Origin: Endomicrobium sp.
GTDB lineage: Bacteria > Elusimicrobiota > Endomicrobiia > Endomicrobiales > Endomicrobiaceae
Assembly (NCBI GenBank): GCA_031264425.1
Contig: JAISDY010000130.1
Location: 1 to 16,274, forward strand
Reading direction: 5' to 3'
Length of the DNA: 16,274 nt
Positions within the stretch are counted from its first letter, which is position 1, and each line of letters begins with the position of its first letter. Positions 18-1,370 of the stretch are shown here, piece by piece. Below the pieces are notes generated by a model, which saw nothing but the letters and a program-made list of their open reading frames with translations, made no database searches and had not been told where the DNA came from. The translations under genes and the position numbers were made by a program.

Positions 18-445
18 TGGTGGAGGTGGCGGGAATTGAACCCGCGTCCGAAAATGTTTTAGTAAGACCGCTACAGGCTTAGTCCGAAAATTTATCTCGT
101 TTATAACGCCGTAATCGGACGGTACTACGTTATAAACCAGCGCCGTTTAATTTTCATTTTAAACTGACGGCACAAGCCGCTTAAAACTAACCTGCTCTTG
201 TCGTTTTATCCCTATAGCAGGTGTCTAAGGTAAAACGAAGCCGCGTTAAGCAGCTATTAACGGAGCAACGAATGAAATGCTAGGTACCATATTAGGCACT
301 ATTGCACTTTTAACGTCGTCCATAGAAACAACAGTTTCGTTAGTTTCATTGTTGTTTATTTTTCGGTCGATTTTTGCGGAGCCATCGACCAACTCCGGCC
401 TGCTGTCATTACCTCAGCCACTCCCGTCGAACCCTGTTCACCCCC
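18..445 (-). ncRNA. ssrA: Transfer-messenger RNA (tmRNA)
   Basis: tmRNA rescues ribosomes stalled on mRNAs lacking a stop codon: it enters as alanyl-tRNA, then serves as template for a degradation tag. The 5' end is GGGGGTG (445-439) and pairs, with one G.U, with CACCTCC near the 3' end; an A discriminator and an encoded CCA (20-18) follow. The conserved GGGTTCGACGGG block sits just inside the 5' end, and a T-arm (GCGGG, loop TTCAATT, CCCGC) just inside the 3' end. Pseudoknot 1 is clear: CGGAG (397-393) with CTCCG (381-377) and GGTCGAT (390-384) with ATCGACC (371-365). A second H-type pseudoknot uses TCGTTTTA (238-231)/TAAAACGA (208-201) and CCTGCT (221-216)/AGCAGG (196-191). The length of 428 nt is at the long end for one-piece tmRNA, partly because the tag frame is long. 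The upstream tadA frame reads into its 5' part. I see no convincing separate promoter in the last 75 nt of tadA, so it may be cut from the ybgC-tadA transcript. Confidence 0.95.
246..353 (-). other. ssrA: tmRNA tag-peptide reading frame (about 35 aa)
   Basis: The frame downstream of pseudoknot 1 starts at AAC (353-351), 11 nt after the knot, the same spacing as the E. coli resume codon. It runs NNETNETVVS, then MDDVKSAIVPNM, then VPSISFVAPLIAA, and stops at TAA (248-246). The hydrophobic end LIAA matches the usual (A/L)xAA protease-recognition end, and the stop lies in a small hairpin (CGTTAA 262-257 with TTAACG 249-244), as expected for helix 5. The resume codon is inferred from spacing only; AAC is not the usual alanine or glycine codon, and 356-354 or 350-348 would be alternatives. 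Many tags are 8-15 residues, so this is unusually long. Confidence 0.75.
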
Positions 446-925
446 ATTATTTTTACGTCTTCCTTTAAAGAAATTCTTAATTATGTCAGCGCACTCTTTG
501 TTCAAGTATTTTTCTTTCCCGCCGTCAAATTCTATTTTGTGGTTTAATTTTTTGCTTTTAGCTATTTTAAAAACGCTTTTACAAGCTCCAGATTTCACGT
601 CATAGGCGCCAAAAATAATCTTTTTTATCCTCGCGTTTACAAGGGCGCCCGCACACATTGCACAGGGCTCAATTGTAACATATATGGAGCAATCGTTCAA
701 ACGGTAGTTTTTCAATTTTTTAGCAGCTTTGCGCAAAGCTACAATTTCCGCATGTGCCGTAGGATCAGACAATATAATGCATTTGTTAAATCCCCGCGCA
801 ATTATTTTGTCGTCACAAGTTATAACTGCGCCTATTGGCACTTCGCCGACTTTTTTGGCTTTACTTGCTTCTTTTATGGCTTGAGACATGAAATAAGCGT
901 CATTTTTAACGTTTTTATTTTTCAA
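356..925 (-). CDS. tadA: tRNA-specific adenosine deaminase TadA, with a tail read from the tmRNA gene
   Basis: TadA deaminates the wobble adenosine of tRNA-Arg(ACG) to inosine in the cytoplasm. The zinc cytidine-deaminase-type site is complete: DPTAHAE with H58 and the proton-shuttling E60, and PCAMC with C88 and C91. EVPIGAV (28-34) is the usual N-terminal strand. The start at 925 is TTG; the first ATG (889) would remove the first half of helix 1, which aligns with known TadA, so TTG is preferred. A GGAA lies 7 nt upstream, and the start overlaps the end of the thioesterase gene by 11 nt, implying translational coupling. The family normally ends near residue 150-160, at an FFKGRRK-type end; here no stop occurs and codon 161 begins exactly at the first base of tmRNA (445). 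Residues 161-189 are encoded by tmRNA 5' sequence, ending at TAA 358-356. The function is sure; the real C-terminus is not. Confidence 0.93.
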   Translation of the reverse strand: MKNKNVKNDAYFMSQAIKEASKAKKVGEVPIGAVITCDDKIIARGFNKCIILSDPTAHAEIVALRKAAKKLKNYRLNDCSIYVTIEPCAMCAGALVNARIKKIIFGAYDVKSGACKSVFKIAKSKKLNHKIEFDGGKEKYLNKECADIIKNFFKGRRKNNGGEQGSTGVAEVMTAGRSWSMAPQKSTEK

Positions 926-1313
926 GATTTTTTTCCAGTGCTTCTCTTATGTCTTTTGGGAAACGCACAGGCTTTAAATCTTTATTAACAAAAGGATGTT
1001 TTGTTTTGCCTGTAACTAAAAGTTTCCCTTTACATTTAACTTCGTAATAGCACGTTATGCTCGCCGCTGTTATTTCTGATATTTTTGTTTCTATTTCTAT
1101 GACGTCGCCGTATTTTGCAGGAGCCAAAGATTTGCACTCGGCATGAATAACAGGAAAATAAAAACCGCGATCTTCTATTGCTTTATATTCAAGACCTATG
1201 TCTCTGAGAAACTCTGTGCGTCCCCGCTCAAAGAAAATTAAATAGTTTGCATAATAAACCATCCCCATTTGGTCCGTATCGGCGTAAGAAATCCTCAGTT
1301 TTAACGAATGCAT
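915..1313 (-). CDS. ybgC: YbgC-type acyl-CoA thioesterase, hot-dog fold
   Basis: This is a small 4-hydroxybenzoyl-CoA-thioesterase-family enzyme that hydrolyses acyl-CoA esters in the cytoplasm. In proteobacteria the family is linked to the Tol-Pal envelope system or phospholipid metabolism. The signature YADTDQMGMVYYANYL near the N-terminus contains the catalytic aspartate (D14 by alignment with YbgC), followed by FFERGRTEFLR on the central helix. The ATG at 1313 is chosen because GGAG lies 7 nt upstream and the family starts just before this signature; the frame is open to 1394, but the extra 27 residues precede the predicted promoter and lack family similarity. This gives 132 aa, a normal length. 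It is the first gene of a unit continuing into tadA and ssrA. The physiological substrate cannot be told from sequence. Confidence 0.92.
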   Translation of the reverse strand: MHSLKLRISYADTDQMGMVYYANYLIFFERGRTEFLRDIGLEYKAIEDRGFYFPVIHAECKSLAPAKYGDVIEIETKISEITAASITCYYEVKCKGKLLVTGKTKHPFVNKDLKPVRFPKDIREALEKNLEK

Positions 1314-1340: not shown

Positions 1341-1370
1341 ATTATAGTACATTGATTCTAAGAAAATCAA
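1341..1370 (-). promoter_or_regulatory. Sigma-70-type promoter for ybgC-tadA-(ssrA)
   Basis: On the minus strand, TTGATT (1370-1365), an 18-nt spacer and a perfect TATAAT (1346-1341). The predicted start is about 20 nt before the ybgC ATG, just upstream of its ribosome-binding site. The promoter is divergent from the tRNA-Cys promoter at 1399. Confidence 0.7.

Follow-up and report, generated by a model that had tools for sequence, protein, structure and literature searches.

Transfer-messenger RNA (tmRNA, encoded by ssrA) and the protein TadA are encoded next to each other on a 16,274-nucleotide (nt) contig from the genome of an Endomicrobium sp., a termite-gut symbiont (GenBank assembly GCA_031264425.1, contig JAISDY010000130.1; this whole stretch, at its full length, is called the window here), and the tadA frame of the window runs into the tmRNA gene without meeting a stop codon. 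We think it probable that this tmRNA is excised from a tadA-ssrA transcript, often headed by ybgC, that has no promoter at ssrA itself, and that the tadA stop drifts in a near-neutral manner across the cut site, in which case no dedicated control loop would be needed. Judged by genome comparison, the adjacency of the two genes is conserved beyond what chance would give, whereas the missing stop and the codon phase are not conserved, and the overlap seems to reflect crowding of genes that is tolerated, not a control loop shaped by evolution.

The window genome falls in the flagellate-endosymbiont group of Candidatus Endomicrobiellum, a genus of flagellate endosymbionts whose genomes are the smallest, and the lowest in GC content, of its family (PMC11257099). 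The window is a single contig of a draft genome of 910 kb, 69% complete and divided into 145 contigs, and the nearest relative available for comparison is the genome G047, whose TadA is 94% identical in amino acids (aa).

The tadA frame continues into the tmRNA gene

Read directly from the sequence, the tadA open reading frame (ORF) extends over 925..356 on the reverse strand, with a TTG start and 189 codons, and the tmRNA gene lies at 445..18 on the same strand. Codons 1 to 160 (446..925) hold the TadA domain, and base 1 of the tmRNA, at 445, opens codon 161 (GGG; 925 minus 3 × 160 = 445). The original prediction had claimed both that the frame has no stop before the tmRNA 5′ end and that codon 161 starts on the first tmRNA base, and both claims hold. 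The stretch read into the tmRNA (356..445, reverse strand) consists of codons 161 to 189 and the first in-frame stop, TAA at 358-356, which corresponds to nt 88-90 of the 428-nt tmRNA. The last four codons ahead of the tmRNA (446..457, reverse strand; R K N N) stand behind a conserved FFKGR motif, and the TAA found here in two relatives, G047 and G011, is out of frame in the window. The tadA-tmRNA overlap is thus confirmed as real.

The product is identified as TadA by the equivalog model NF008113, which scores 181 bits (cut-off 150) over residues 6-160, and since the match spans these residues the TadA domain ends where the tmRNA begins. With this score above the cut-off, loss of the TadA domain was rejected, as was a conserved function for the extra 29 residues, which are tmRNA sequence read as codons and differ from genome to genome. 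We agree with the earlier statement that a 189-aa TadA could come only from uncut transcripts, but its residues 161-189 are those read from tmRNA sequence.

The tmRNA itself is a full-length match to RF00023 (model positions 1-374, E 2e-68, 170.9 bits against a curated score of 47), with a predicted mature 5′ end, and hence a predicted RNase P site, at 446/445. ARAGORN did not report this tmRNA (18-445) despite its Rfam score of 171 bits, and our guess is that its long tag is the cause. The 5′ end of tmRNA is generated by RNase P (PMC3985003), and because this processing is established, a cut at 446/445 would leave a tadA message that ends on a sense codon.

Conserved adjacency without a conserved missing stop

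Among 95 genomes of the class, a tmRNA match (E <= 1e-20) was found in 77 and a tadA-like match, distant homologues counted, in 85. The tadA gene lies at most 0.6 kb upstream of the tmRNA and on the same strand in 70 of the 77. The seven genomes left out of this set of 70 pairs are G020, in which the junction is deleted, G043, in which tadA is 1.8 kb away, G002, G071, G075 and G076, in which the tadA match is on another contig, and G082, which has a weak distant match only. In G043 (C65; L104) the two genes are on the same strand about 1.8 kb apart. In G020 (C108:362-1204; L106) tadA lacks its last codons and the tmRNA its 5′ part, and an in-frame fusion joins TadA to the tag frame (ending AMPMAAA*), which may be either real or an assembly artefact. 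Outside the class, tadA and tmRNA are linked in at least 7 of the 23 genomes whose TadA match reaches E <= 1e-25, and in all seven linked pairs the tadA stop lies before the tmRNA; in two families from outside the class, f25 and f23, the genes are on separate contigs where both places are listed.

Within the class the tadA stop falls inside the tmRNA in 16 of the 70 pairs, at most 15 nt ahead of it in another 16 and farther upstream in 38. The stop-inside pairs are distributed as 11/35 in the genus, 2/18 in the other genera of the family, 0/7 in the other families of the order and 3/10 in the rest of the class, and the overlap is not significantly more frequent in the endosymbiont genus (11/35 vs 5/35, Fisher p 0.15). 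Their stops lie at tmRNA positions +5 (seven genomes), +9, +10, +34, +54, +55, +69, +87 (twice) and +105, and the tails that they close are unrelated. A UGA at tmRNA nt 6-8, present in 63/70 class genomes, provides a built-in stop in one frame for genes that run in, and it closes 7 of the 16 tadA frames that end inside the tmRNA. A conserved codon phase was rejected, as phases 0, 1 and 2 account for 6, 7 and 3 of these genes. On a TadA tree of the 70 rows, built with a quick method from 158 columns and with 30 of its 67 inner branches open, the stop-inside state changes at least 12 times, seven of the changes being forced by starred branches, and the overlap therefore seems to have arisen repeatedly in the class.

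The closest relatives are informative about the window itself. A TAA at -4 is kept in G047 and in G011 (85% aa identity), while the stop is at +5 in G015 (82%) and G009 (79%) and at -5 in G013 (76%); G056 (79%) has exactly the arrangement of the window (+87, phase 0). Compared with G047, the window lacks one C at the junction, the only gap in the tadA alignment, and this one-base difference would have put the TAA at -4 out of frame in the window lineage and moved the end of the frame to tmRNA nt 88-90. One possibility is that the missing C is an assembly or consensus error and that the true tadA ends at the TAA at -4, as in G047. That the gap is the sole one and that the genome is a draft in many contigs speak for an error, but the difference is more than a change in homopolymer length, the remaining long ORFs in the window are uninterrupted, and stop-inside junctions in 15 other genomes make such a state plausible. 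We regard an error as quite unlikely, and it would be compatible with near-neutral drift of the stop in the class as a whole. It is hardly credible that slippage restores the stop: an A5 run does directly precede the TAA of the other frame, and an extra A in AAAAAT would bring this TAA into frame, but five is short when the runs that support transcriptional slippage are typically of about nine.

For the 46 of 70 junctions with spacers of at most 60 nt, we compared the number of missing stops with a null model in which the spacer, from the last conserved TadA motif to the tmRNA, is a random sequence of matching composition; we chose this limit ourselves, as well as the motif taken to close the TadA core and the weights of the promoter score used below. 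For the genus (28 pairs), 11 stop-inside cases were seen against 10.7 (standard deviation 2.3) expected from base composition and 12.2 from triplet frequency. Overall, 16 were seen against 19.9 or 21.8 (standard deviation 3.1). There is thus no excess of missing stops over this null model and, overall, a slight deficit. Spacers are shorter in the genus, with a median of 30 vs 54 nt (p 0.026).

These results bear directly on the functional loop that had been proposed, in which RNase P makes the tadA messenger RNA (mRNA) non-stop, tmRNA tags the resulting TadA, and the level of TadA is thereby tied to the supply of tmRNA under selection. Some of its ingredients are in place, as a joint transcript is likely, SmpB is present, ClpP is found in 28/41 genomes of the genus, the tmRNA tag of the window ends in AA, and the stop lies inside the tmRNA in 11 of 35 genus pairs, including G056 with its identical arrangement. 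However, a conserved missing stop in relatives had been named beforehand as the supporting result and a stop ahead of the tmRNA in close relatives as the refuting one, and the TAA at -4 of G047 and G011 is the latter. A conserved missing stop was accordingly rejected: relatives keep the stop, missing stops occur at about the frequency given by chance, in any phase and with differing positions and unrelated tails, and the state has changed repeatedly on the tree. We consider the selected loop very unlikely.

The tmRNA is probably transcribed together with tadA

The single transcript on which the original prediction was premised finds support in genome comparison. Upstream of tadA, and overlapping its start, lies a YbgC/FadM-type thioesterase gene, the presumed head of the operon (915..1313, reverse strand; TIGR00051, 89.5 bits against a cut-off of 68.7), for which we chose the start ATG at 1313, while the ORF list begins at TTG 1394. 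A ybgC match is found upstream of tadA in 35 of the 70 loci. Ahead of ybgC-tadA-ssrA in the window is a promoter-like TTGATT-18-TATAAT at 1341..1370 (reverse strand), a consensus match only, although the ybgC heads are enriched for such sites as a group. Within the last 75 nt of tadA there is no promoter-like site that matches in at least 9 of 12 positions, the nearest on the same strand being at 700..672, and the best weak match just ahead of the tmRNA ranks only at 0.39 against other stretches of the locus, which bears out the earlier observation that no good tmRNA promoter is to be found there.

For the comparison across genomes, a simple sigma-70 score of the 60 nt upstream of each gene was set against shuffles of the same stretch. 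No sigma-70 signal was detected before the 70 tmRNAs linked to tadA (mean z -0.11, standard error 0.12; 3/70 in the best 5%), and none before those linked tmRNAs whose spacers exceed 60 nt (z -0.08; 2/24), whereas 20 of 32 ybgC starts are in the best 5% (mean z 1.92). With a 100-nt stretch instead, the counts are 5/70 for linked tmRNAs, 3/24 for those with spacers above 60 nt and 18/32 for ybgC heads. As a control we used 39 hand-picked tmRNA places of this phylum that do not follow tadA, meaning that the preceding up to 400 nt hold no TadA match; G043 was removed, having a TadA match upstream, and of the 38 left, one is preceded by N alone. Fifteen of these 38 are in the best 5%, against 2/70 linked tmRNAs in the same run (Mann-Whitney p 0.0018), with 6/6 in family f22, 5/10 in f14, 2/4 in the window's own family, 1/8 in f15 and 1/3 in f19. 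Together with the adjacency in 70/77 genomes, these data make it most likely that a tmRNA linked to tadA lacks its own promoter and shares the tadA transcript.

An alternative is that the joint tadA-ssrA RNA is minor, the tmRNA having, within tadA, a promoter of a kind invisible to the scan, so that few tadA messages are cut. A cell usually requires tmRNA in far greater amounts than TadA, which would fit such a promoter, and the unlinked tmRNAs of f25, f23 and f17 show the signal in 0/7 rows, so some tmRNA promoters of the phylum may escape the scan and a missing signal is no proof of a missing promoter. Against this, the same scan does find sigma-70 sites at unlinked tmRNAs and at ybgC heads in the numbers given above, and hardly any at linked tmRNAs even where the spacer is long. 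We hold a hidden promoter to be unlikely, though the most serious of the alternatives.

Maturation, ribosome rescue and the weight of the evidence

We propose that a (ybgC-)tadA-ssrA transcript contains the tmRNA as its 3′ portion and that the tmRNA lacks a separate promoter. Its 5′ maturation by RNase P at the predicted site would set the 3′ end of the tadA mRNA at tmRNA -1, after codon 160 in the window, and with short spacers the tadA stop may fall either before the cut or within the tmRNA, its position drifting nearly neutrally. Ribosomes that trail the polymerase could enter the first 90 nt of the tmRNA before it is finished, folded and cut, which would yield the 189-aa protein with its 29-residue tail. 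On messages already cut, rescue by tmRNA and SmpB would give a tagged TadA, and rescue by an ArfB-like factor, if one operates, an untagged TadA of 160 aa. Because the TadA domain is complete by codon 160, each of these forms could work unless degraded. A stop position that becomes nearly neutral once RNA processing makes the end of the message would be the simplest account of the data.

The machinery for these steps is widespread in the genus. SmpB was found in the window genome and in 38/41 genus genomes, and RNase P RNA in 32/41 (20 of them above the Rfam cut-off) and in 14/14 high-quality genomes. Besides ORFs of release-factor size, a short RF-1-domain ORF, possibly encoding an ArfB-like factor, is intact in 6 of the 11 genomes examined (142 codons in the window genome) and broken by stops in one. 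The TadA substrate, tRNA-Arg(ACG), is present in G047, where the loci of 30/43 transfer RNA (tRNA) places were read.

Several observations weigh against the proposal of near-neutral drift on a joint transcript. Both the joint transcript and the RNase P cut are predictions, the base that sets the window apart from G047 is one base in one draft genome and could be an error, and in the 69%-complete window genome neither RNase P RNA nor ClpP was found. The promoter scan sees only sigma-70-type sites, the control tmRNA rows are related to each other, and their signal comes mainly from f22 and f14, the seven rows of f25, f23 and f17 (one of them all N) having none. Enrichment is weak at tadA heads without a ybgC match (10/35, z 0.54), and the tRNA genes of the window are in the best 5% in 1/5 cases (z 0.88). 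Finally, the stop-inside label is slightly clustered on the TadA tree, 22 of 500 shuffles needing as few changes, and the overall count of 16 is below its chance value, so weak selection for a stop outside the tmRNA is possible.

A bolder version, which we consider quite unlikely, is that throughout the class the tmRNA behind tadA is promoterless and carved from tadA mRNA, with the output of TadA throttled by tmRNA maturation and tagging. If it were true, each mature tmRNA would cost one tadA message, which would be left with no terminator and, in many cases, no stop, and the decoding of CGN codons would be linked to ribosome-rescue capacity wherever the stop codon sits. More generally, the data suggest that a stop codon may be loosely held where RNA processing, rather than a terminator, ends the message, and they draw attention to a lineage that seems to produce its tmRNA within a protein-coding transcript. 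The 46 short-spacer junctions form a natural series for this, with stops from before the tmRNA to 105 nt inside it.

The tmRNA tag

The tag frame of the window tmRNA, NNETNETVVSMDDVKSAIVPNMVPSISFVAPLIAA, has 35 codons (353-249) followed by TAA at 248-246 (246..353, reverse strand, from the Rfam alignment). We infer AAC as the resume codon from its position in this alignment; the version trimmed by script starts one N earlier. The tag has 27 codons in G047 and the two sequences are almost unrelated, the rest of the tmRNA being nearly identical; the 3′ CCA is encoded by the window tmRNA, while its final A is unencoded in that of G047. The tag is long and variable: by script, readable tags have 14-48 codons in the genus, 21-29 in the family's remaining genera, 9 to 25 in the order, and 9 in 7/10 rows of the rest of the class (three misread); the script uses a simple trim, so that lengths hold to within a residue or two, and six of the 70 rows were recognised as failed or misread (G059, G053, G032, G034, G031 and G024). 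Three small draft genomes of the genus (0.4-0.5 Mb), G055, G054 and G017, have shrunken tmRNAs of 270-307 nt.

Comparison with known systems

The idea that maturation of a tmRNA or tRNA can leave an upstream mRNA without a stop is already in print (PMC4131195, PMC8124441), and no report of the tadA-ssrA overlap was seen among the papers listed by searches of an open-access library. The nearest precedent is in Carsonella, where smpB runs into ssrA in half of the strains and tmRNA maturation would make the smpB mRNA non-stop (Hudson, Lau and Williams 2014, PMC4131195). These authors describe an interesting feedback situation, call the extension an "apparently random" sequence and report having found the situation only in Carsonella (PMC4131195). 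As with tadA-ssrA, an upstream coding gene reads into ssrA in a reduced endosymbiont genome and a non-stop mRNA is expected; the gene in Carsonella, however, is smpB, which encodes the partner of tmRNA, whereas here it is tadA.

The same study lists 250 protein genes that lie upstream of a tRNA or tmRNA gene, point the same way and overlap it, for example FTSW_RODA_SPOVE with tRNA-Ile in Helicobacter (44 cases), and its top overlap families are said to reflect few evolutionary events (PMC4131195, Table 4). The tadA gene of the window is likewise a coding sequence on the same strand, upstream, with no stop before the RNA 5′ end, and it shares with the listed cases the geometry and the predicted non-stop product. 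It differs from them in that the tadA-ssrA pair is conserved through a class while the overlap has seemingly arisen repeatedly.

For selB and selC, processing of the tRNA has been proposed to leave a non-stop selB mRNA and so repress SelB, and in some relatives a stop precedes the tRNA (PMC8124441). There, the tRNA-Sec is wholly nested in the gene in many species, its length mostly keeping the frame, and partial overlaps keep the position of the stop within a lineage (PMC8124441). The tadA frame, by contrast, stops at varying places inside the tmRNA, in the window at nt 88-90 of 428, so the RNA is not nested. In E. coli arfA, cleavage of the mRNA at an RNase III stem-loop leaves a non-stop message tagged by tmRNA, as shown by experiment (PMC3989581). 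The product of arfA is a ribosome rescue factor, which TadA is not, and a cut ahead of the stop is not conserved for tadA, whose stop lies before the tmRNA in 54/70 pairs, that of the nearest relative included.

Human mitochondrial mRNAs that end at a tRNA have stops that are not fully encoded and are completed by polyadenylation (PMC9674279), and they resemble the tadA message of the window in that the message would end at the boundary with a tRNA or tmRNA where the stop is not fully encoded. Set beside these systems, tadA-ssrA in Endomicrobia is a further case, one that recurs within a single gene pair.
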